From the IMG/VR virus record IMGVR_UViG_3300047509_000032, positions 1 to 24,239 of that record: a stretch of 24,239 bases of DNA; one strand, 5' to 3'. The DNA is from a virus. Below are positions 3,745 through 23,287 of this stretch, one piece after another (within the stretch, counting starts at the first letter, position 1; each line of letters starts with the position of its first letter). The notes beneath the pieces were generated by a model. That model searched no databases. It saw nothing but the letters and a program-made list of their open reading frames with translations, and was not told the origin of the DNA. The translations under genes and the position numbers were made by a program.

Positions 3745-5019
3745 CTAGTGGAATATGATGGCTAGCACGGACCCGAGCGCTATTAGGATGGACACTCCGG
3801 CGAGCAAAAGAGAGTAAGAGGCTCGCGCTCCCTCTTGGCGGCCTGTGCTCTGATCCAGACGAGATGTCAGCCTTAGCTCAAGATTGGAAACACGCTCAGT
3901 TAGCGCATCTATCTTATCTGCAACCGCTTGGTAAGATGCCGCATGCTCAACGCGACTGATTAGCGTGGCCGCCTGATCTGCCAGTTGCCCCCGGAACTCA
4001 TTTGTAGCCTTGAACCGTTCTCCTGCGGCGGATTCTGCCTTGCTAGCTGCCTTCTCTGCGGCTGCCAACGCGGCCTGGACAGCTTTGTCCGCTGCGTCGA
4101 AAGCGGTTTTCATGGCCGTGTTGTGCATGGCAAACCCGGCAGCGATGTACGTCCCCGTGGACGTGGACAGGGATGCGATGGTACCGCGCGCCCGCTGGCC
4201 CACGCAATGGACAGTCACCGCCCGCGCGTCACCGCTGATGCTGTGGCCCTCCCACACCCGGTCGCTGTGCGCGAGCAGCCGGGCAGGCCGCACGCTGCCA
4301 AGGAGCTTCATCACATCAGCGCGCCTGGATACCTGGTAACGGTTAATGAGTTTCTTGTTGTGGTAACGTCCGGCCTCCACCTGCGTTATGGCCGGGTCAC
4401 GGCCAAGGCAGTCCTTGACAGCCATAAGCAGGGCATCCGCCGTAGGGCCGGCAGCCTGGGCGATCCCCAGGCGGGCACTGCGGTCGCCTGGCGCGAACGT
4501 CAGCCAGCCCTCACCGTCGTACATGCCCGACAGCCAGCCGCCGTCCCACGTCCGGTCCACTTCCCAGACGTCCGTGACGTGCATGACCTGGTTACCTGGC
4601 CTGAGATCCCTGGTCTTACGCCAGAGCCAGCGATTCTCGTGCTTGGTCTTTACCAGCCACGGATGCTCAGGATTGCACCGCACGTCACCTGCCGCCGTCC
4701 TCACCAGCATCAGGTCATCCTGTGCCAGCCTGTTCGCGGTGACAACAGCACGCCGGAAGTTCCGGCCACTGCGTCCGGTGCCGGTATCTGACTCTGCATC
4801 AAACGCGATCAGCTCGTCACCCGGCCGCAGTTCACCGGCTGGTCGCCACACCAGATCAGCGCACAAAACCGGCGTGGATGCCTCGCAGCACTGCTGCGCT
4901 ACGAAAGCTGCGTCCGTGGCTTTAGTCTGCGTGGCGTACCGTTCATCCAGCGCTGTCCGCAGGTCTGTTAGCTGAGACTCAAAGTACTTTTTAAGGGTCT
5001 TAAGCGTCCAGCCGGTCAC
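3745..5019 (-). CDS. Coiled-coil membrane protein interrupted by an intein
   Basis: The 424-residue precursor starts at a GTG whose GTGA overlaps the previous stop. Residues 1-43 and 301-424 are the host protein: an amphipathic start (LKKYFESQLTDLRTALDERY), a long alanine-rich coiled coil containing NEFRGQLADQA, and a C-terminal membrane helix (about 402-423). Joined across the intein, the pieces read continuously (AQQ then TAMKTAF) as a 167-residue protein. This matches a type of small membrane-anchored coiled-coil protein I recognise from actinophages, often suspected of a holin-like or tail-associated role, though its function is not established. Residues 44-300 are an intein, described separately. 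Loss of splicing would put a 257-residue domain in the middle of the coiled coil. Confidence 0.8.
   Translation of the reverse strand: MTGWTLKTLKKYFESQLTDLRTALDERYATQTKATDAAFVAQQCCEASTPVLCADLVWRPAGELRPGDELIAFDAESDTGTGRSGRNFRRAVVTANRLAQDDLMLVRTAAGDVRCNPEHPWLVKTKHENRWLWRKTRDLRPGNQVMHVTDVWEVDRTWDGGWLSGMYDGEGWLTFAPGDRSARLGIAQAAGPTADALLMAVKDCLGRDPAITQVEAGRYHNKKLINRYQVSRRADVMKLLGSVRPARLLAHSDRVWEGHSISGDARAVTVHCVGQRARGTIASLSTSTGTYIAAGFAMHNTAMKTAFDAADKAVQAALAAAEKAASKAESAAGERFKATNEFRGQLADQAATLISRVEHAASYQAVADKIDALTERVSNLELRLTSRLDQSTGRQEGARASYSLLLAGVSILIALGSVLAIIFH
4120..4890 (-). other. Intein with single LAGLIDADG-type motif
   Basis: The segment codes residues 44-300 of the coiled-coil protein. It starts with Cys44 and shows an N-terminal splicing block ending in ELRPGDELIAFD. 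A B block follows with NPEHPW (residues 116-121), then an endonuclease-like motif GWLSGMYDGEGWL (161-173), and a C-terminal block with GTYIAAGFAMHN. Asn300 is followed by Thr301 as the first C-extein residue. These are the expected catalytic residues for protein splicing (Cys1, block-B His, His-Asn, +1 Thr). Cys45 directly after Cys44 leaves a one-residue uncertainty at the N-junction, but Cys44 gives the continuous extein. Only one LAGLIDADG-like motif is visible, so a homing nuclease may be reduced. The DNA is clearly more GC-rich than its surroundings (about 70% at 4141-4260), a sign of recent arrival. Confidence 0.85.
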
Positions 5020-5168: not shown

Positions 5169-5412
5169 TTGAGTACCTGTTCTGGTTGTTAGGGTTGCGT
5201 CCTACGTTCGGCCGCGCCACATTGTCATTGCATGCGAAGCCAGGGCCTAGGAAGACCGCCGTAGGAACACTGCGGATAACACGCTTCATAGGTGCGTCAC
5301 ACGCGTAACAGAACTGGGTTTCATCGCAATCGGAGATCGGATGCACAAGTTCCTGTACTTCATCTAGGCAGGTGCACGTCTGGTTACCGCACACGTAGTC
5401 ATACTTAGGCAT
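5161..5412 (-). CDS. FmdB-type zinc ribbon protein
   Basis: Starting at the ATG at 5412, the 83-residue protein opens with MPKYDYVC and has two cysteine pairs (CGNQTC and CYAC). It continues with PMKRVIRSVP and FLGPGFACND, the layout of the FmdB/zinc-ribbon family (an M-P-x-Y-x-Y start, a treble-clef zinc ribbon, then an F-x-G-x-G-F-like end). Members are small, poorly understood, putative regulatory zinc proteins. A start 12 codons upstream (5448) is possible, but it would precede the likely promoter: a TATACT at 5424-5419 lies 6 bases before the ATG, so the message is probably leaderless, and no Shine-Dalgarno is present. It heads the minus-strand group that leads to the secreted proteins. 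Confidence 0.75.
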   Translation of the reverse strand: MPKYDYVCGNQTCTCLDEVQELVHPISDCDETQFCYACDAPMKRVIRSVPTAVFLGPGFACNDNVARPNVGRNPNNQNRYSSD

Positions 5413-5448
5413 ATCAAGAGTATACTTATACTTGTGGACTTTGAGCAA
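5413..5448 (-). promoter_or_regulatory. Leaderless sigma-A-type promoter for the FmdB-type gene
   Basis: On the minus strand TTGCTC (5448-5443) and TATACT (5424-5419) are 18 bases apart, close to the -35 and -10 consensus. The -10 ends 6 bases before the ATG at 5412, so transcription would begin at or next to the start codon. The same stretch on the + strand holds two tandem TATACT boxes (5421-5426, 5427-5432) just before a GTG at 5434, so it could fire in both directions. This is a sequence-pattern call only. Confidence 0.5.
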
Positions 5449-5787
5449 CAGCTACACGAAGCAGAAGAGAATTATTTCTACGCAGACACGGTTTCTGACC
5501 GCCTGCACTACGCGTCTGAGATCTGGGAGGCAATGAAATCCTTGAAATCAGGCGATGCGCCGTCATCAAACGCGTTAACCAGGGCTGCTACATACACTTT
5601 TTCTAGTCCGGAGAGCTTACTTATCCGATTTAGCGTGTACTTGCGCCTTAGCATCCAGCAGATTGTCATCAGGGTGCCTGTAGTGTGCCCAACCCATTCT
5701 GTAGACGCGAACTTGCACTCGATCATGGCTTCCACGCCGAGTAGTTCCACGTCTGAGAGCCTGAAAACAGGCGGCGGGAGCGCATAA
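5434..5787 (+). CDS. Possible antisense small protein over the WhiB gene end
   Basis: A GTG at 5434 opens a 117-codon frame. Its first roughly 45 residues look like a real protein (FEQQLHEAEENYFYADTVSD, then a helical segment with WEAMKSLK), and the codons there resemble neighbouring genes. The rest, antisense to the WhiB-like gene, turns serine/threonine-rich and looks like a shadow frame. TATACT boxes just upstream could give a leaderless message. The 280-base antiparallel overlap with a well supported gene argues against the full length. The frame may be a genuine short gene whose 3' end has been lost, or a coincidence. Confidence 0.25.
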   Translation: MDFEQQLHEAEENYFYADTVSDRLHYASEIWEAMKSLKSGDAPSSNALTRAATYTFSSPESLLIRFSVYLRLSIQQIVIRVPVVCPTHSVDANLHSIMASTPSSSTSESLKTGGGSA

Positions 5788-10232: not shown

Positions 10233-10627
10233 TGGCTTATCCAACTACACCGGGTCAGTCCCTTAATGCTGTGGCTGTGACTAGCACGGCATCTACCGGC
10301 GTCGGCACTACGCAGGCGGTGGGGGCGACCGTAGGTACGGCTGGTACGCACGCGGCTGTATTTACTGTCACATTGTTCAATCAGGGCGCTAATAGCGAAG
10401 CCGAACTCGTGCTTGTTATCGAGGGTAATCTTGACGGCTCGACATGGGTTAACCTAGGTAGCATGACTGTAGAGGCTAACGGAGTGTACCTGCTTGTACC
10501 TAGCACAGGTTCGGGCACTACTGCTAAGACACCGATGGCTAACCTGCGCTGCTCTGCTTACTTTAAGGGTTTCGGAACTAGTAGCCCTACGGCTACTGTC
10601 ACGGCTTGGATTGGAAGTACCATATAA
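10232..10627 (+). CDS. Beta-sandwich structural protein
   Basis: The 131-residue protein is almost all beta-prone and rich in threonine, alanine and glycine, with the motif VIEGNLDGSTWVNLG. The same x-DG-x-T/V-TW strand recurs in the gene at 15750, pointing to a shared Ig-like or jelly-roll fold used in decoration or tail-tip proteins. It overlaps the previous stop (TAATGG) and the following spike gene (TAATG). Being immediately before a tailspike, it might be a spike connector; alternatively it decorates the capsid. Confidence 0.5.
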   Translation: MAYPTTPGQSLNAVAVTSTASTGVGTTQAVGATVGTAGTHAAVFTVTLFNQGANSEAELVLVIEGNLDGSTWVNLGSMTVEANGVYLLVPSTGSGTTAKTPMANLRCSAYFKGFGTSSPTATVTAWIGSTI

Positions 10628-11757
10628 TGGCTGGTCCATATTATTTTGACATAAGTCAGGCTCCCTACTCCGCTATCGGCGACGGCGTTACCGACCACAC
10701 TACAGTCATCAACCAGGCTATTAAGGACGCTGGCGCGCTTACTACTAGCGTTAACCACGGCACTCCTACTAACTCCACCGTATTCTTCCCGGCCGGTATT
10801 TACATTACCAAGCAGGTTGTAATGTATCCCGGTGTCACGCTACAGGGTGTAGGTTCCGGTTCTTACGGCGTTCCTGGCGGAAACATGGACGCGCCCGGCT
10901 GGGGAACCTCTGTTCTTAAGCTAGCGGCTAACACCAACGATAACTTTATCTTGCTCGCTGACGGCGTTAACTACTGTCGTTTCTATGACATGGCGTTTGA
11001 CGGCAGTAAGAGTAATAACACATTCAACGCAGGTTCAGGGCTAGCTAACGGTATCCATATCGCGGATGGCGCGGGCGGCCAGGAATCCCAGATGATCATG
11101 GAACGCTGCTTTGTTTTCAACACGGTAGGTTCCGGTATCTACATGGGACACAACCGGCGTGCTAACAAGGTTTTCCAGAGCGTTGTCAACTACTCTGGCA
11201 TTGACGGCATTCAGGTCGCCGGATCGGACAACACGATTCAGAACAACATCCTCGGCTCTAATGTCCGTGCTAACGTGTGCCTTGGTACTAATACTGCCGT
11301 TCACTGGGGTGCTAACTCTGCCCCTAACTCAGCGGCGGTTACGCACGTACTCAACAATGACATTTACGGCAACACTAACAGTCCTTTTACTCAGGTCGGT
11401 ATTGCTCTCGGCTTGGGCACATGGGGCAGCATTATCATGGAAAACGGTCTTGACCGTCACCAGTATGAAGGTATCTCTGCTTATGACGGTACTACTACTG
11501 TAGCTGTCGGTAATTGTTTCCACAGCAACGGCATAGCTGTAGATAATACCTACGGCCATATTGGACTAGCGACTAACGTATCCAGCATTGCCATTAGCTC
11601 CAATAGCTTCGGCCCGCTAGACGGCGGTATCACCAATAAGGCTAACTACGGAGTGTATAATCAGACTAGTAAGGGTGTCACGGCTGTAGTTGGCGATTAC
11701 GGCGTTATCTTCCCTGGCTCTGTCGCTGGTACCGCTAACGCCGGACTGCATAACTAA
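10627..11757 (+). CDS. Beta-helix tailspike (pectate-lyase-like)
   Basis: Counted from the ATG at 10627 (overlapping the previous stop by one base), the product has 376 residues. Its start (YSAIGDGVTDHTTVINQAI) and the following STVFFPAGIYITKQVV and YPGVTLQGVGSG match the opening turns of pectate-lyase/pectin-lyase right-handed beta-helix proteins. Phages use these as depolymerising or binding spikes. Repeating N-x-I/V strands and surface asparagines continue to the C-terminus (NNIYGN-type turns). No large N-terminal virion-attachment domain is present, unlike the spike at 16375. A frame start 21 bases earlier (10606) is less likely because it overlaps more. Confidence 0.75.
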   Translation: MAGPYYFDISQAPYSAIGDGVTDHTTVINQAIKDAGALTTSVNHGTPTNSTVFFPAGIYITKQVVMYPGVTLQGVGSGSYGVPGGNMDAPGWGTSVLKLAANTNDNFILLADGVNYCRFYDMAFDGSKSNNTFNAGSGLANGIHIADGAGGQESQMIMERCFVFNTVGSGIYMGHNRRANKVFQSVVNYSGIDGIQVAGSDNTIQNNILGSNVRANVCLGTNTAVHWGANSAPNSAAVTHVLNNDIYGNTNSPFTQVGIALGLGTWGSIIMENGLDRHQYEGISAYDGTTTVAVGNCFHSNGIAVDNTYGHIGLATNVSSIAISSNSFGPLDGGITNKANYGVYNQTSKGVTAVVGDYGVIFPGSVAGTANAGLHN

Positions 11758-11765
11758 GGATTAAA

Positions 11766-12521
11766 ATGAAGGTTCAGATTAGGCCGTCGGCTAAGAAGGC
11801 CGGAAGCAAGTCTCCGACTTCAGCAAGCCGTAAGCAGCTTGAGAGTGCGGGCGAGGCAATGCCGGGCGGTCGTTACCCGATCCCCAACGTTGATTTCCTC
11901 AAGCGTGCGGTCCGGTCTATCGGACGTACCCCGCCCGGTAAGCGCGCTGCTGTCGTGTCGTGGATTAAGAAGCGCGCTTCAGCTCTCGGGCAGCCTAAGC
12001 TCGCGGCTAACCTGTCCAATGCTGCGGACTACGCGCTGAACCTGGCCAATCAGAAGGACGCTGACGCTATCGAGCTTGCCGGCGCTCCGGGCGGAAGCGG
12101 GGATACTCTTCCGCAGGGTGGCACTAAGAAAGAGACTGTCGATTTCAAGAACCTGAAGACTAAGGATTTCCAGTCTAAGGTTAAGAAGACTGCCCTAAAG
12201 ACCAAGAGCGGCAAGATGAACTACGCTAAGCTCCGTGCTCAGGGTTATGACAAGAAGACTTCTAAGGCTGCTGCGCTGAAGCACGAGCAGGGACTTATCA
12301 ACTCAGAAATGAGTAACCCGCAGGGCGCGCTTAACCTAGCTAACTTTGATACTGACGATGTGCAGGGCAAGCTCGGCCTGAAGAGTCCGGGCAGCCTGAA
12401 GGTCTATGCTAAGGCGCGTAAGAAGGGCCTCCCTCATAACGTTGCCTTGCAAGCCGCAAAGCACACGGACAAGAAGGCCAAGGATTCCGGGATGGCGAAC
12501 GCTAACGCCCCAAAAGCGTAA
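11766..12521 (+). CDS. Basic structural protein, zero-frame product
   Basis: This 251-residue, lysine- and alanine-rich protein lies between the spike and the prohead protease. Residues about 31-76 read MPGGRYPIPNVDFLKRAVRSI, then GRTPPGKRAAVVSWIKKRASALG. That is the pattern of a short domain often found in phage head-region proteins (MPDG-x-FPI-x-N-x-x-DL-x-NA, GR, then a basic helix). The middle holds KTKSGKMNYAKLRAQGYDKKTSKAAALKHEQG-like basic helices, suggesting nucleic acid or capsid contact. It ends at a TAA directly after a slippery CCCAAAA, so a longer frameshifted form is probable. Function is not established. Confidence 0.6.
   Translation: MKVQIRPSAKKAGSKSPTSASRKQLESAGEAMPGGRYPIPNVDFLKRAVRSIGRTPPGKRAAVVSWIKKRASALGQPKLAANLSNAADYALNLANQKDADAIELAGAPGGSGDTLPQGGTKKETVDFKNLKTKDFQSKVKKTALKTKSGKMNYAKLRAQGYDKKTSKAAALKHEQGLINSEMSNPQGALNLANFDTDDVQGKLGLKSPGSLKVYAKARKKGLPHNVALQAAKHTDKKAKDSGMANANAPKA
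12509..12515 (+). other. Candidate -1 ribosomal frameshift site
   Basis: The zero frame reads GCC CCA AAA GCG TAA, so C CCA AAA is a canonical X XXY YYZ slippery heptamer, placed 3 bases before the stop codon. A slip of -1 enters a frame that stays open for 142 more codons and codes a sensible protein. The 13 bases CCCAAAAGCGTAA are identical to those at the tail-chaperone frameshift site (23275-23287). No clear downstream stimulatory stem is obvious by eye. Confidence 0.6.
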
Positions 12522-12943
12522 CGGAACTGTCCAAGTCCGGTTCGGGTAACTACGGCCACGGGTTTAAGCCTAAGACCGAATCGGCGGCCAGTTCCCACTA
12601 CCACGGCTACCCTAACGAATGGCACGGCCCCAAGCGCAAGTACAACAACTCACGACGTAAGAGCATGGGCAATCACGGCGGCGGCATTCCAAAGGGCGCT
12701 AAGAACCGTGCCGGTACCAAGGGAACTTCTGCGGGATCTGCCGACAAGGGCAGTAACAAGTTTAGCGTCGGTGACCACGTTAGGGTGCACGCTGGGGTGC
12801 ATACAGGTATTGAGGGAAAGGTCAGGCGCACGCTTGGAGTTAACCACGTGCACGTCGTACCTAAGAGTGGCCGGTCTTTCATTGCGCACGTCAGAAACGT
12901 AGGCACAGTACACACTAAGCATTTCCACGCTGGTGTTGGGTAA
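12515..12943 (+). CDS. KOW-like extension made by -1 frameshift
   Basis: This frame has no ATG, GTG or TTG between its upstream stop (12503) and the ATG at 12665, yet 12515-12664 already reads like protein (SGSGNYGHGFKPKTE, SHYHGYPNEWHGPKRKY), so frameshifting from the preceding gene is the best explanation. The fusion would have 392 residues. The C-terminal part has FSVGDHVRVHAGVHTGIEGK, a KOW-like beta-barrel motif of the type seen in ribosomal protein L24 and NusG, in a glycine/histidine/lysine-rich setting. An independent start at 12665 would give 92 residues, but only a weak ribosome site precedes it. Confidence 0.6.
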   Translation, partial: SVTELSKSGSGNYGHGFKPKTESAASSHYHGYPNEWHGPKRKYNNSRRKSMGNHGGGIPKGAKNRAGTKGTSAGSADKGSNKFSVGDHVRVHAGVHTGIEGKVRRTLGVNHVHVVPKSGRSFIAHVRNVGTVHTKHFHAGVG

Positions 12944-12963: not shown

Positions 12964-14133
12964 ATGAGCATTATCCTTACCCCGATGGAGTTTAGCGGTA
13001 CAGAGCAGCTTGAGCGGCGACTGTACCGTAAAAGGGTGCTGCCAGTAGACAGTATCGACTATGAAGGCCGTAAGATCGACTTCACTACTGAGTACCTTCA
13101 GAAGATGGTGGAGTCCTTTAACGACGGTGCTTTCGACAACGTTCCGCTGCAGTTCGCAGAAGGCGATAACAAGCACACCAATAAGATCGAGCAGTACCGT
13201 GGCGATGTTGTCGGCATGGCTCTGCAAGACGACGGGCTGTACGTAACCGTTGCTGCTACATCTGAAGGCGCTAAGTGGCTTAAGGAAAATCCTAAGGTCG
13301 GTATCAGTGCGCGTATCGTCAATGACTATGACCGTGCTGACGGTAAGCACTATGATGCGGCTATGCAGCATGCGCTAGTGACTCATGACCCACGCATTCC
13401 CGGTCTAGGACCGTGGTCTGAGGTAAATTCTTTTAGTAATTCCGATGATTCTGATATCATTGACCTAACAGGGGAGAAATTCCCTGTAAAGACCAAAAAG
13501 ACTAAGGAGAAGTCTGTGCCAAAGAACGAGAACTCGCTCAGTGATACTGAGCTTGAGCGACTTCGTTCCTTCCTTGCGGAGCTTGACGAAGAGACGGACG
13601 AAGAGACCGCCCCTGAAGTCAATGCTGACGCGAGTGACGAGCTGACTGACGCCGAACTTGCGGAGCTTATTGCGTCGCTGGATAACGAAGACGCACCTGA
13701 AGCCGTTGACCCGGAGCCAGTGCTCGCAGACGCTTCTCTTAGCAATGATAACTCTAGCGACAATAAGGCGCTGGAGCTGGCGCAGTCACACGCTACCGAG
13801 CTTAGCCGTATCCGGTCTGAGCTTGACGACGAGCGGTGGACTGTTGAGCGTGAGCGTCTTATGCGTAAGGTCGGTCTGCCGCCTGCGGTGATTGACCTGG
13901 CTAAGCCTCTGCTTAAGGGCGAGGGTCATACGATTGACCTGTCTAACAACGAAACTGTTGATGCTGGCAAAGTTATGCGCGACGTGCTTAATGAAGTCGG
14001 CAAGCTAGTTAAGATTCTGGATCTGGGTAATGAGCTTGGGTCTGAGTTTGAGAAGGAGCCGGATGTCTCGGAAGAGGCTGCTACCCGGCGTAACGATACC
14101 ACCAAGGCCGTCCGTGCCATGATGGGTAACTAA
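12964..14133 (+). CDS. Prohead protease fused to scaffold
   Basis: The 389-residue protein has an N-terminal part (1-150) resembling Mu gpI-type prohead proteases. It includes YRKRVLPVDSIDYEGRKIDF, VGMALQDDGLYVTV and a late HALVTHDPRIPGLGPW, where the H-x-x-L-T-x-x-P-x-I-P-G-x-x-W motif is characteristic. The C-terminal half is very acidic and coiled-coil-like (EELDEETDEETAPE-type stretches, then ALELAQSHATELSRIRSELDD), as in scaffolds. Protease and scaffold on one chain, directly before decoration and capsid genes, is a known arrangement: the scaffold guides capsid assembly and is later cleaved. The start is leaderless. Confidence 0.75.
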   Translation: MSIILTPMEFSGTEQLERRLYRKRVLPVDSIDYEGRKIDFTTEYLQKMVESFNDGAFDNVPLQFAEGDNKHTNKIEQYRGDVVGMALQDDGLYVTVAATSEGAKWLKENPKVGISARIVNDYDRADGKHYDAAMQHALVTHDPRIPGLGPWSEVNSFSNSDDSDIIDLTGEKFPVKTKKTKEKSVPKNENSLSDTELERLRSFLAELDEETDEETAPEVNADASDELTDAELAELIASLDNEDAPEAVDPEPVLADASLSNDNSSDNKALELAQSHATELSRIRSELDDERWTVERERLMRKVGLPPAVIDLAKPLLKGEGHTIDLSNNETVDAGKVMRDVLNEVGKLVKILDLGNELGSEFEKEPDVSEEAATRRNDTTKAVRAMMGN

Positions 14134-14707: not shown

Positions 14708-15619
14708 ATGCCAACTCCGGTATATGCCGCCAGTGATGGGCCTCGCATCACCGTAGATGTCCTTATCAAGGACCCACTGCAGGTGCCAGCGCTTATTCTG
14801 GACATGACTGAGAACGAGTTCGTCGTTGACTCAGTTCTGCGTAACGCTGGCCTGGCTCAGTCCGGGGTTGTCCGTTACGAAGAGTCTACGCCTCTGTATG
14901 CGGATCAGAACCCTGAGGTTAGGGCTGAGTTCGCTGAGGTTCCAGTCGTGCCCACCTCGATTGGTCAGCCACGTGCTGTGTACGCTCACGAGCGTGCCAT
15001 GGCGATCATGGTGTCCGACGAAATGCGTCGGCGTCAGATCGTTGACCCTGTGACTCGTCAGCTTCTGCAGGTTAAGAACACGATGGTTTACTCTTGGAAC
15101 GCGGTCTTCATGAACGCGATCCTGGCCAACACCTCCGTGCAGACCCTTGCGGTTGCTAACCCTTGGGCGTCGTCTAACGCAACGATCCGAGCGGACCTGG
15201 CTAACGCGGGATTCCTGATCGAGAATGCTAACGTTACCTCGGTTAACGGTGTCGTGCAGTGGTTCGGTTTCGAGCCTGACACACTGATTGTCAACCACGT
15301 AACTAAGGCTACCCTGCTTCAGTCCAGCTCTTTCGCCGCGCCTTACCTCGGTGACATCGCGTCGGAAAACCTGCTCTACACGGGCAAGCTTCCTAACAAG
15401 ATCTTTAACTACGACGTGCTGGTTTCGCGGCAGGTTCCTACGGGTACCGCCGTCCTGATGCAGCGTCAGCGTTGCGGCTTCATCGCGGATGAACTGCCGA
15501 TGATGGCTTCGCCTCTTTACCGTGACGAGCCTCGTAAGGTCTGGCGTTCGGACGTGCAGCGTGCGGCGGCGATTGGGTTCGACCAGCCGCTCGCGATCTG
15601 TGTCATGACCGGCATCTAA
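14708..15619 (+). CDS. Major capsid protein (HK97-type fold)
   Basis: The 303-residue protein follows a good AGGAGA site, ends just before a strong terminator and occupies the place of the major capsid gene. Sequence signs are an E-loop-like region with PEVRAEFAEVPVVPTSIGQP and a long spine helix around RAMAIMVSDEMRRRQIVDPV. A P/A-domain-like part follows, with FEPDTLIVNHVTKATLL, and then RQVPTGTAVLMQRQRCGFIADE near the C-terminus. No separate delta domain is seen because scaffolding is carried by the upstream gene. A long antisense frame over this gene is a shadow. Confidence 0.85.
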   Translation: MPTPVYAASDGPRITVDVLIKDPLQVPALILDMTENEFVVDSVLRNAGLAQSGVVRYEESTPLYADQNPEVRAEFAEVPVVPTSIGQPRAVYAHERAMAIMVSDEMRRRQIVDPVTRQLLQVKNTMVYSWNAVFMNAILANTSVQTLAVANPWASSNATIRADLANAGFLIENANVTSVNGVVQWFGFEPDTLIVNHVTKATLLQSSSFAAPYLGDIASENLLYTGKLPNKIFNYDVLVSRQVPTGTAVLMQRQRCGFIADELPMMASPLYRDEPRKVWRSDVQRAAAIGFDQPLAICVMTGI

Positions 15620-15640
15620 GCTTAACATTCCCACTACAGT

Positions 15641-15668
15641 AAAACCCCCGTCATTAGGCGGGGGTTTT
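15641..15668 (+). terminator. Rho-independent terminator after the capsid gene
   Basis: AAAACCCCCG (15641-15650) pairs with CGGGGGTTTT (15659-15668) around an 8-base loop, giving a 10-bp stem whose 3' arm ends in four Ts. It is placed 21 bases after the capsid stop, where it could set the high capsid message level. The A-tract also allows it to work from the other strand. Confidence 0.85.
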
Positions 15669-15676
15669 GCTATAAT
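15668..15676 (+). promoter_or_regulatory. Extended -10 promoter fused to the terminator
   Basis: TGC followed by a perfect TATAAT begins in the last T of the terminator stem. The extended -10 form could work without a strong -35, and none is seen. Transcripts would start near 15683 and carry an untranslated leader of roughly 65 bases before the TTG start at 15750. Confidence 0.5.
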
Positions 15677-16163: not shown

Positions 16164-16318
16164 TGGCTACTAGGGCAGGCAGCGGGCAGTCCAGCGGTAT
16201 TACCGCTTCTGCCGGTGCGCTTACGGCTACGCATGCGACAGTGAGTGCGCACGTGCACCCTGCCACTGCTGCCCCCGTATGCGCGCCCGAATCACCGCCT
16301 ACGACCAACGAGCACTAA
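16163..16318 (+). CDS. Small hypothetical protein, 51 residues
   Basis: The ATG overlaps the preceding stop (TAATGG) and the frame ends with the TAA at 16316-16318, two bases of which fall in the stem of a perfect inverted repeat. The product is alanine/threonine/serine-rich, with several histidines and prolines (HATVSAHVHPATAAP), and looks unstructured. No family is recognised; support comes from the tight overlap and the terminator placement right at its stop codon. Confidence 0.5.
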   Translation: MATRAGSGQSSGITASAGALTATHATVSAHVHPATAAPVCAPESPPTTNEH

Positions 16319-16353
16319 GTAGTAAAAGAGCCTATAAGGCTCTTTTACTACTT
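16317..16353. terminator. Perfect 16-bp inverted repeat, probable terminator
   Basis: AAGTAGTAAAAGAGCC (16317-16332) and its exact complement (16338-16353) flank a 5-base loop, TATAA. The stem has a GAGCC/GGCTC core followed by TTTT, so it can stop transcription, and its symmetry makes it usable from both strands. It begins inside the stop codon of the 51-residue gene and lies just before the spike gene, whose ATG is 22 bases on. Confidence 0.75.
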
Positions 16354-16374
16354 TGTAAAGGAAGCAAGTGTAGT

Positions 16375-19299
16375 ATGGCACTCAGTACAGTCACGCTTAC
16401 TTGGAATCTGACGGACTTTCTTAGTACCGCGATTCCTGACTCCTGTACGCTATACATCACTCCTACTAGTACTCTTGCTGACACTGCCGATAGCAAGACG
16501 CTTATCGGTGTAACACGTGCTACATCGTTTACTGGCGGTGCCGGATCTTGGTCCGGTATCGTCGCTAACGACAACGTAACCCTAGCTCCGGCCAACAGTG
16601 CGTATACAATTCGTATCATTGACAACGTTACTGGTAGCACCATTATCGGGCCTTTCACATCGCCCGTCAACCACGCTGCAGGTGCTACACAGGATCTTTC
16701 CCTGCTTTACGCTAACCAGGTTAGCACTGTTCCTTTCTTCCAGTACGTGACTACAGCGGCGCTTCCCTCGCTAGTCGCTGCCGCCACTGCCGCTGATCTC
16801 GGTACCACGTACAGTGTGCTTACATTCGGTGCAGACCCTACAGGCGTGACTGACTCGACTGCAGCCATTCAGGCTACTATCAATGCTGTTACAGGTAACG
16901 CTAACCCGGTAACTACCTCACGGTCAGCTATTGCACAGGTATACCTGCCTACCGGCGTGTATAAGATCTCTACCGACCTGCTTATACAGTCTGTTCAGGG
17001 ATTCCGCCTTTACGGCGACGGACCTGAGATGACTTTCATTAAGGCGTCGGGTACAGGTTTCACTAACGGACCTATCACTATTGACGGCTCGTACGCTGGT
17101 CGCTATGAGGGTTTCACGATCCTAGGTGACACTACTGAGCAGGTTAACAACGCTATCACGCTTACGTGGACTACGAACGCCCACCGTTCTACCACGGGTA
17201 ACAAGTTCGCAGACATTCGTATTCGTAACCTCAACTTTGTCACTGGTTTTAACATGGCCGGTGTGGGTAACCGTCAGCTTGACTCTACTAAGCTTAGTTG
17301 TATCGTGGTCGGTGGCGGCTTCGGGCCGACAACCTGGAGTAATTCGGGTAACTGGCAGCAGGGTTTCGTATTCGGTAACAGTACCTTCGCTAACATCTAC
17401 GACCAGGTACTTGAACGGTGCGAGCCATCTGGCTGCTACTACGGCTTCTACAATAACGTCTCCAGTTTCTCGCTTAACGGGTCGCAGCCCGCCAACAACT
17501 TTATTGACTTCTACATGTCCCCCGGTGCGCAGAGCACGATCACCAACGTTCAGTCGCAGAACTGCGGTCAGTTCCTCTTCGCCCCGTCGAACTTCTCGGC
17601 AATTCCGAACTCTTTCAACGACATTCAGGTTAAGAGCAGTTTCCTTCAGGACAGCGGCAACGCGATCATCTCTCTCGCTGGCGGCACGTGGAACTTTAAT
17701 AACTTCAGTGCCACCGGCCTTCAGGTAACTACGACCGTAGCTGCCGGAAGTAACGGCGGCGCTATTAACACGATCGCATCCTGGGCATTCCCTTCGGCTG
17801 GCGTGCTGGCTGTAGCGTCCACCAACGGTCTGCCGACCTCTGGACAGATGAACGTCGTAACGTCTACCACTAACGCCGTGATCAGTTACACAGGCCTTAG
17901 CGGCGGTAATACGCTCACCGGCTGCACGTACGTATCCGGAGGCACGGGTACTGTATCCACAGGCGGTAACGTGTTCAACTACGTTAACGGTACTATTTCC
18001 CTAGTTGGACCTAGCACGACACGTCCCTGTACCGCACTGTTTAACAACCTGGCCCTACGCGGTTCGCGAGCTAGCGCTTTCACCCCACTGACTCACGCAA
18101 TTGTCTCGTGCCAGGGATACTCTAACTACGAACCCACCACAGGCGTTTACACCTACGCAACTGGTGACGTTTCTTCCATTAACCTCGGTGGTATCTGGAC
18201 TACCCTAGGCGGCCCCGGAACTCCGCAGCAGGTCAACTATATTACGGCTACTGGTAACACCACGTATAACATTCCAGTAGGTGCAGTAACCCTAGACGTT
18301 ATGATCGTCGGAGGCGGCGCTGGCGGATCGTCGGGCGCATTCTCTACCACGGGTGCTGCGGGGGGTGGACCAGGCGGCGCGGGTGGTGGCGTGTGTAAGC
18401 AGCAGTTCCAAGCTAGTGCGCTTACTAGTCCGCTTACGGTAACCGTAGGTGCTGGCGGCGCGGGCGGTGCTGCTGTTACTTCTGGTGCCAACGGTAACTC
18501 CGGAGTAGCGGGCACTAACACCAACTTCGGTACCTACATGTTCGCAAAGGGAGGCAGTGCTTCCAGTGGAGGCCTCGCCACTAACGCCTCGATTCAGACT
18601 GGCGCTGCTGGCGGCCCTGGTACGTGCGTAAGCGGTGCGGGAGGGTCTACAGTTACTACGTCTGCTGTACCGTCATCGGCAACGGCGCAGACAACAGGCG
18701 GTGGCGGCGCGGGCGGCGGCATACCGATTTGCTCGACTACGGTCGCGGCTGGCAGCAACGGCGGCACGATCACGAACATTGCGTCATGGGCTAACCCATC
18801 TGCCGGTACCCTGTCCGTTGCTGCTACTACAAACTTCCCCGCGTCTGGTACGGCTACTGTAGCCTGCTCGGTTTCTTCCCCGGCAACAATTACCTACACG
18901 GGAGTCACGGCTAACACGCTAACTGGTTGTGCGTATGTTTCTGGCGGAACTGGGACCGTAGCCACTGGCGGCGCAGTTATTACACAGGGGGCGGCGCAGA
19001 ACGGCGCGGGCTGCACAGCGCCAGTACTCGGAGTAGCCAGCAACTCGTCCAGCGGTGGCGTCGTCGGTGGCGCGAGCCCGACCAACGGCAGCGCGCCTAC
19101 GGCTCAGGGGGATACGGCACCTGGCGGTGGCGGTGGCGCGGCGGCGCTGTCTGGTACGGCCCAAGGCGGCGCTGCTGCACAGGCTAACTCTGGCGGTGGC
19201 GGTGGCGGTGGCGGTGCCGCTTCTAACGGGGCTACATCTTCAGGTGCAGGCGGCGCGGGCGGTTCCGGTTTTTGTCTTATTATCGCTTACTTCCAGTAG
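16375..19299 (+). CDS. Large tailspike/tail fibre with beta-helix and glycine-rich tip
   Basis: From the ATG at 16375 the product has 974 residues. Residues 1-120 (MALSTVTLTWNLTDFL to the QDLSLLYAN region) form a small beta domain that recurs alone in the gene at 19308 and is probably the virion-attachment part. From about 146, YSVLTFGADPTGVTDSTAAI starts a pectate-lyase-like beta-helix. From about 641 to the end the chain is extremely glycine-rich (MIVGGGAGGSSG and many GGG runs), resembling polyglycine-sandwich adhesin tips. An 81-residue module occurs twice (453-533 and 788-868), the second copy inside the glycine-rich part. It probably binds or degrades a surface glycan. The reading frame from 16279 is not used because it crosses the terminator. 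Confidence 0.8.
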   Translation: MALSTVTLTWNLTDFLSTAIPDSCTLYITPTSTLADTADSKTLIGVTRATSFTGGAGSWSGIVANDNVTLAPANSAYTIRIIDNVTGSTIIGPFTSPVNHAAGATQDLSLLYANQVSTVPFFQYVTTAALPSLVAAATAADLGTTYSVLTFGADPTGVTDSTAAIQATINAVTGNANPVTTSRSAIAQVYLPTGVYKISTDLLIQSVQGFRLYGDGPEMTFIKASGTGFTNGPITIDGSYAGRYEGFTILGDTTEQVNNAITLTWTTNAHRSTTGNKFADIRIRNLNFVTGFNMAGVGNRQLDSTKLSCIVVGGGFGPTTWSNSGNWQQGFVFGNSTFANIYDQVLERCEPSGCYYGFYNNVSSFSLNGSQPANNFIDFYMSPGAQSTITNVQSQNCGQFLFAPSNFSAIPNSFNDIQVKSSFLQDSGNAIISLAGGTWNFNNFSATGLQVTTTVAAGSNGGAINTIASWAFPSAGVLAVASTNGLPTSGQMNVVTSTTNAVISYTGLSGGNTLTGCTYVSGGTGTVSTGGNVFNYVNGTISLVGPSTTRPCTALFNNLALRGSRASAFTPLTHAIVSCQGYSNYEPTTGVYTYATGDVSSINLGGIWTTLGGPGTPQQVNYITATGNTTYNIPVGAVTLDVMIVGGGAGGSSGAFSTTGAAGGGPGGAGGGVCKQQFQASALTSPLTVTVGAGGAGGAAVTSGANGNSGVAGTNTNFGTYMFAKGGSASSGGLATNASIQTGAAGGPGTCVSGAGGSTVTTSAVPSSATAQTTGGGGAGGGIPICSTTVAAGSNGGTITNIASWANPSAGTLSVAATTNFPASGTATVACSVSSPATITYTGVTANTLTGCAYVSGGTGTVATGGAVITQGAAQNGAGCTAPVLGVASNSSSGGVVGGASPTNGSAPTAQGDTAPGGGGGAAALSGTAQGGAAAQANSGGGGGGGGAASNGATSSGAGGAGGSGFCLIIAYFQ
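17731..17973 (+). repeat. Spike internal module, copy 1
   Basis: Eighty-one codons starting TTVAAGSNGGAINTIASWA and ending GGTGTVSTGGNV, matched by the second copy at 18736-18978 with the same length. Shared landmarks are IASWA-PSAG, a Y-TG step, TLTGC-YVSGGTGTV and TGG-V. The module sits between the beta-helix and the next part of the spike. The DNA has diverged, so the duplication is not recent. Confidence 0.8.
18736..18978 (+). repeat. Spike internal module, copy 2
   Basis: The second copy begins TTVAAGSNGGTITNIASWA and ends GGTGTVATGGAV, again 81 codons. It is embedded in the glycine-rich tip, splitting it in two, which suggests that the module is a self-contained fold (for example a small beta domain) that can be shuffled within fibre genes. 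Confidence 0.8.
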
Positions 19300-20659: not shown

Positions 20660-21004
20660 GTGAACATTAACTTTGAGCCTGACGCCATGCAGCGTATCTA
20701 TGAGCTAACAGACAACATGTTTGAGACTAAGCTCGGCCCGATGATAGAGGCACAGGTTAAAATCAACTGCCCTAAAGATACTGGCGCACTCGCTGACTCT
20801 GTGAGCATGTCAGTTGACCGCGTTACGCACGCCTTGTACGTACAGGCTTACGGCGACGAGTCACGTCCGGAAGGACGTAAGTACTACGCGGCTTACGTAG
20901 ACCTAGGGCATCATCAGATCGCTTGGGGTCACGATACAGGTAAGGTTAAGGCACCTACTGCCTTTATGCGCAGGGCGCTCTACCGAAGGTATGCGGGTTT
21001 CTAA
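20660..21004 (+). CDS. HK97 gp10-like tail-completion/neck protein
   Basis: A GTG at 20660 gives 114 residues with the gp10-type pattern: a helical start, then NCPKDTGALADSVSMSVD, a middle strand with YAAYVDLGHHQ, and PTAFMRRALYR at the end. The P-x-D-T-G-x-L-x-x-S and Y-A-x-Y-V-x-x-G-H signatures are well known in proteins joining head and tail. The stop overlaps the next ATG by one base, showing coupled translation with the following tail gene. Confidence 0.8.
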   Translation: MNINFEPDAMQRIYELTDNMFETKLGPMIEAQVKINCPKDTGALADSVSMSVDRVTHALYVQAYGDESRPEGRKYYAAYVDLGHHQIAWGHDTGKVKAPTAFMRRALYRRYAGF

Positions 21005-22942: not shown

Positions 22943-23287
22943 ATGTCTGTTAAGACTGCTGTCAAGGAAGACGCTTCCACGGAAGTTATCGCGCTTAAGT
23001 CTAAGAAGGGTACTAAGAAGGCCGACGCGATCACGCTGTTCTCGATCGATGACAAGGACTACAGTATCCCGTCGTCCATCCGGCCGAATCAGGCCATGCA
23101 GATCATGAAGGTTTTTCGTAAGCAGGGTGACACCGCTGGTGTTGACTTCATGCTTGAGGTTCTACTCGGTTCTGAGGGTTATGAAGCGCTGCTCGCGTTC
23201 GATGACCTTGAGAGTGATGACCTTGAGAAGATCATCAAGATTGCGTTCCAGATGGTCGTCGGGGCTACGGAAAACCCAAAAGCGTAA
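22943..23287 (+). CDS. Tail assembly chaperone, zero-frame product (gpG-like)
   Basis: The 114-residue protein lies between the major tail protein and tape measure genes. It has a start with charged low-complexity residues, then FSIDDKDYSIPSSIRPNQAM and a helical rest (GDTAGVDFMLEVLLGSEGYE). It ends ENPKA at a TAA right after the slippery CCCAAAA. Position, size and frameshift signal match the lambda gpG/gpGT system, where the short form and the frameshifted form together wrap the tape measure during tail assembly. The ATG at 22943 has AGGAAAGGA upstream. Confidence 0.85.
   Translation: MSVKTAVKEDASTEVIALKSKKGTKKADAITLFSIDDKDYSIPSSIRPNQAMQIMKVFRKQGDTAGVDFMLEVLLGSEGYEALLAFDDLESDDLEKIIKIAFQMVVGATENPKA
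23275..23281 (+). other. -1 ribosomal frameshift site of the tail chaperone
   Basis: The zero frame reads AAC CCA AAA GCG TAA, so C CCA AAA is a canonical slippery heptamer 3 bases before the stop. Slipping by -1 enters the open frame that ends at 23616. This is the conserved position for such a shift in siphophage tail operons. The sequence CCCAAAAGCGTAA is shared with 12509-12521. Confidence 0.85.

Follow-up and report, generated by a model that had tools for sequence, protein, structure and literature searches.

A programmed -1 ribosomal frameshift at the end of a gene in the head module, at positions 12509-12515 of the window, is in our judgement very probably real, given the sequence comparisons set out below. 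The window is the whole stretch of DNA analysed, 24,239 nt from an uncultivated bacterial virus (IMGVR_UViG_3300047509_000032). The zero-frame gene (11766..12521, plus strand, as are all features of the site described below) encodes a very basic protein of 251 aa (pI 10.3) and ends ...GCC CCA AAA GCG TAA, in which the slippery heptamer C CCA AAA (12509..12515) stands in zero-frame phase, one codon (GCG) ahead of the stop TAA (12519..12521). The -1 frame is open for 142 codons up to its own stop (12515..12943, TAA at 12941-12943), and its first 50 codons are free of ATG, GTG and TTG, the first of these being the ATG at 12665 (codon 51) and the sole earlier CTG lying at 12527. A shift would consequently produce a fusion of 392 residues (250 + 142). 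The earlier note had described this arrangement of a heptamer one codon before the stop of a basic protein, followed by a long -1 frame lacking an early start, and the sequence agrees with it in each respect. A scan of the whole window on both strands, for XXXYYYZ heptamers in phase and at most 12 codons from the stop, in frames of at least 60 codons with a longer -1 frame, returned three places only (four overlapping heptamers): the 12509 site, a tail-chaperone site at 23275, and a heptamer at 20995. The last was set aside as a frameshift site, its -1 frame being the next gene, which has its own ATG at 21004.

The extension encoded by the -1 frame was found by profile search in two viral_contigs records, 3300045257_000055 and 3300036819_000057 (hereafter L003), and a profile of the zero-frame protein matched the same two phages in viral_contigs. 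The former is a near twin of the window, with 99.95% identity over 7881 nt around the region and no indels, and adds no lineage, such that the distinct lineages known to carry the extension number only two. L003 is considerably more diverged: its amino acid identity to the window is 48% for the zero-frame protein and 67% for the extension. It retains the heptamer, the following GCG TAA and the open -1 frame, and an 18-nt run covering the slip site and stop, CCCCAAAAGCGTAACGGA (12508..12525), is identical in both phages; hence the site and both of its frames are conserved between two diverged lineages. Neither the extension profile nor a capsid profile matched anything in genome_contigs, and a search of phage records for the extension likewise returned no match. 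Just past the capsid gene, at about 15589-15671 of the window, identity to the near twin falls from 99.95% to about 97%, a pattern resembling a recombination edge.

The zero-frame gene lies between the portal gene and a putative head maturation protease gene (12964..14133, plus strand, 389 aa), followed by the major capsid gene (14708-15619). The protease assignment is a weak one, drawn from the order of the genes together with a very weak match to the PHROG head maturation protease (E=0.25), and the product has no Pfam match at E<=1. Pfam, PHROG and NCBIfam contain nothing usable for the family of the zero-frame protein, which consists of an N-terminal domain at residues about 20-80 and a C-terminal motif, YxKxxxKGLxxxxAxxxAK. 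Residues 21-79 match a polyprotein annotated as ‘capsid maturation protease’ in Microbacterium phage Cece (gp70), the gene for which lies directly 5' of the Cece capsid gene, and this match appears to be the best link in sequence between the zero-frame protein and head assembly. The gene therefore combines a place in the head module with homology to a head gene product. From the gene order, and from the domain held in common with the capsid-protease polyprotein, we infer a head location for the protein. The earlier description of it as a head-region protein thus stands as regards its position between portal and putative protease, while the protease call itself is weak and membership of the head would follow only indirectly. 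The interval between the portal gene and the frameshifted gene is occupied by different proteins in the two phages: a pectate-lyase-like protein in the window (10606-11757) and an ADP-ribosyltransferase exoenzyme domain in L003 (42-1241; PF03496, E 7e-16). A second beta-helix protein of the structural region, a pectate-lyase-like protein of 1006 aa with a glycine-rich domain, is encoded at 16279-19299 of the window.

Under the reading we favour, most ribosomes would terminate at TAA 12519 and release the 251-aa basic protein, while a minority would pause over C CCA AAA owing to a stem 7 nt downstream, slip one base back as CCA and AAA re-pair with CCC and AAA, and continue into the 392-residue form, with 250 residues in common and 142 from the -1 frame. 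Both forms would act in head assembly, with the long form presumably minor and delivering a basic module of KOW/SH3-like character to the inside or the surface of the procapsid, as in the extended head proteins of A2, T3 and T7. Our best guess is that the long product is a minor version of a basic head-assembly protein, lengthened at its C terminus; that it is also a virion component seems to us about evenly balanced. The most durable alternative keeps the same frameshift and envisages a chaperone or scaffold pair in the style of lambda G/GT, in which neither form would stay in the particle and the extension would bring in another head component at a set ratio. This is a possibility of some substance, to which we nonetheless assign clearly less than an even chance. 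The slip word is the same as that of the window's own tail-chaperone pair, the gene sits in the head module adjoining the putative protease, and its N-terminal domain occurs in the protease polyprotein of Cece, all of which would suit such a pair; however, no partner is known, and A2 and T3 have frameshifted head proteins that are, in the portions of the literature available to us, capsid components. Lambda-type tail assembly chaperones do resemble the window site in having a -1 heptamer and a minority long form, yet they occupy another place in the genome and are unrelated in protein, and the head-module site lacks a tape-measure partner.

Translation of the -1 frame upstream of its first ATG is indicated by the pattern of substitution in the intervening stretch (12515..12664). 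Here the window and L003 differ at 35 of 150 nt, with 5, 6 and 24 of these differences at -1-frame codon positions 1, 2 and 3, giving dN 0.142, dS 1.244 and a dN/dS of 0.11 in the -1 frame. Such purifying selection, acting over the 50 codons that precede ATG 12665, implies that translation starts further upstream, and we conclude from these substitutions that 12515-12664 is in all likelihood translated in the -1 frame, with entry into that frame likely to occur by a slip. The extension could instead be a separate gene, starting at CTG 12527 or ATG 12665 and coupled to the upstream stop, a reading that would draw on the conservation of the Met codon at 12665 in L003 (3151) and on the nearness of the stop to the -1 frame. 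We consider it very unlikely: the 50 selected codons lack ATG, GTG and TTG in both phages, by eye no Shine-Dalgarno-like sequence precedes ATG 12665 in either, and a start at CTG 12527, although compatible with the selection alone, would leave the slip word unexplained. Nor, among the relatives, were the frames seen split into separate genes, each with a start of its own, an outcome that the earlier note had named as refuting its proposal. The frameshift proposed there is strongly upheld by the conserved site, stop and frame, the selection, a candidate stem and a slip word already reported elsewhere.

Two further explanations are barely credible. Transcriptional slippage at CCCCAAAA, generating mixed mRNAs, would yield the same pair of proteins as ribosomal slippage, but an in-phase heptamer close to the stop, with a stem at a suitable spacing, is what the ribosomal route would lead one to expect, and tracts of only four C and four A offer a polymerase little room to slip. 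A base lost or gained in CCCCAAAA through assembly or sequencing error, splitting one gene in two, might be suspected at a homopolymer-rich site in a metagenomic contig, but L003, with 35 differences in the 150 nt past the site, breaks frame at the identical position, which in practice refutes this explanation; the near twin agrees without indels over its 7881 nt, and a slip site already reported has this very run.

Downstream of the heptamer, a 7-bp stem can be folded in both the window and L003, with a 5' arm, GGAACUG (12523..12529), beginning after a spacer of 7 nt and a 3' arm, CAGUUCC, at 12589..12595. In L003 one A-U pair is replaced by a compensatory G-C pair, and both of the changes involved are synonymous in the -1 frame. 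When synonymous codons were shuffled in the two sequences together, keeping the proteins and the codon pairing from phage to phage, 35 of 2000 shuffles reached the fold energy of the two sequences combined; when each sequence was shuffled alone, its own energy was reached in 18 and 24 of 1000. A common stem of at least 7 bp at a spacing of 5-9 nt nevertheless arose in 334 of 2000 synonymous shuffles, so that the stem alone is no proof. Dinucleotide shuffles of 85-nt stretches gave z scores of -1.2 and -1.8 for the two phages, and the RNA downstream of the window's tail-chaperone site folds strongly as well (z -3.6). The stem, as seen in two sequences, offers backing for the frameshift rather than proof of it. 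An internal Shine-Dalgarno stimulator was also considered and dropped: across the seven sites compared, the best Shine-Dalgarno-like matches lie 12, 7, 7, 17, 11, 10 and 2 nt upstream of the heptamer, and none is conserved at a constant place.

The slip word itself has a counterpart in a known system. In Lactobacillus phage A2 the head gene finishes with the same 16 nt that open the 18-nt run, CCCCAAAAGCGTAACG, and the A2 tail gene ends in CCCCAAAAGCGTAG, which equals the slip word over 13 nt. Frameshifts of the -1 type are reported in the head and tail genes of A2, in the available part of one source (PMC5009743), and a CCCAAAA slippery sequence in the head gene of the related phage BH1, in the available part of another (PMC6950654). 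The window's own tail-chaperone pair provides an internal comparison, having the 13-mer CCCAAAAGCGTAA at its site (C CCA AAA GCG TAA, 23275..23287, plus strand), whereas the tail chaperone of L003 has A AAA AAC TAA in place of C CCA AAA; since L003 has changed the chaperone word and kept the head-module word, the two sites vary independently. The window gene hence shares with the frameshifted virion proteins of A2 the same slip word, the same stop distance and a C-terminal extension from the -1 frame. It differs from them in that the A2 carriers are major head or tail proteins and the window carrier is another head-module protein, and in that the A2 head extension is an Ig-like Big_2 domain, to which the window extension has no match (E<=1).

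An exact 17-mer, CCCCAAAAGCGTAACGG, occurs in 24 viral_contigs contigs, against 5 for the reversed word, and the 24 forward-word contigs were sorted by the layout of their frames. Two are the near twin and L003. Half (12/24, many of them close relatives of one another) combine a long zero frame with a -1 frame starting SVTGV, and in the two of these tested a Big_2 domain was confirmed by Pfam, on a major tail protein (L008) and a major capsid protein (L009). One more contig (L012) has a gene pair at 5366-5582 right before a tape-measure-like frame, which has no PHROG match and is chaperone-like from its position only, and the other nine show no such frame layout. Counting this chaperone by position only, the slip word is found on four unrelated types of structural gene. 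A broader proposal treats CCCCAAAAGCGTAAC as a frameshift word that can be carried from gene to gene: unrelated phages would have acquired it, or arrived at it independently, in four types of structural gene, those for the major capsid protein, the major tail protein, the tail chaperone and the window's head-assembly protein. Here it would control the addition of a new, phage-specific module that binds nucleic acid or the ribosome to a fixed share of the copies of a head protein resembling a scaffold. We put this forward tentatively, and consider it rather doubtful as a whole.

The extension (142 aa, pI 10.8, with 14 His and 24 Gly) appears to comprise a conserved, basic part rich in His, Gly and Tyr (residues 1 to about 61) and a KOW-like part (about 80-130). 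Between the window and L003, residues 1-61 are the best conserved, with an invariant HYHGYPNEWHGPKRKYNNSRR core, and the best conserved portion of the extension is thus not the KOW-like one, which goes beyond the earlier note. The near-invariant HYHGYPNEWHGPKRK stretch (12515-12700) may bear a likeness to tails of the HYGVKGMKWGVRR type in the head proteins of some phages. A KOW-like domain had been claimed in the earlier note, and the motif phrase FSVGDHVRVHAGVHTG is indeed found in the extension, which has the GDxVxV...G..GxEGxV pattern of KOW/NusG-SPT5 motif proteins. However, no profile score reaches the gathering cut-off of PF00467 or its relatives: the best Pfam match, KOW4_SPT5 (E=6e-4), scores 20.1 bits where 27 are required, Pfam KOW itself scores 11.4 bits against 22.3, and the remaining weak matches are to NusG_myco (0.005) and UpxY (0.003). 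Moreover, the extension of L003 has no KOW match, and the resemblance of residues 80-130 is seen only in the window's copy, below every curated cut-off. Structure predictions for the extension and for its KOW part had pLDDT values of 46.8 and 46.9, too low to judge a fold, with strands in one model and a helix in the other, and a sequence search of the PDB gave one match, at E 0.98. On these profile scores, a KOW domain in the extension is possible but weakly supported.

Among wider relatives, a capsid profile recovered 33 loci, including the two extension carriers, and 21 of the remaining 31 have at least 1 kb upstream of the protease match. In none of these 21 was the extension detected (profile E<=1, six frames), so that the wider group can evidently do without it. 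Nor does any of them have a slip site of this kind followed by an extension that matches; the five GC-rich heptamers present, spread over four of the 21 loci, were judged unrelated. A homologue of the zero-frame protein lies upstream of the protease in 10 of the 21, ending at or shortly past its C-terminal YxKLxxKG motif. On this distribution, the extension would have been either gained in the carrier lineage or lost elsewhere.

Frameshifting outside the tail chaperones, which the earlier note had regarded as much less familiar, proves less exceptional than was supposed, given that major head proteins of phages A2, T3/T7 and A118 shift frame, as stated in the available part of a published account (PMC5009743). 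The coat proteins of T3/T7 (gene 10) and of Listeria A118 and A500, as far as the accessible portions of their descriptions go, resemble the window product in being head proteins with a frameshifted C-terminal extension, but their carrier is the major coat protein, unlike that of the window, and the likeness is one of description and not of sequence. What is new here is the carrier protein and the extension. A literature represented largely by titles and the beginnings of abstracts offers no description of a frameshifted KOW head protein, and its entries on CCCAAAA and phage frameshifting give no account of this case. Most phage frameshifts on record affect tail chaperones or the major proteins of head and tail, and the present one concerns another head-module protein with a different, strongly conserved extension; head assembly may thus make wider use of subunits extended in a set ratio. 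The occurrence of the exact slip word in A2, in the window's tail chaperone and in other structural genes also makes it a simple search key for unannotated extensions.

Elsewhere in the window, a coiled-coil/membrane protein of 424 aa (3745-5019, minus strand) carries an intein-like insert, with a weak NCBIfam match to an intein-containing protein over residues 42-301 (E 1e-4) and Cys...HN-Thr ends as judged by eye. An intein within a protein of this kind would be unusual.
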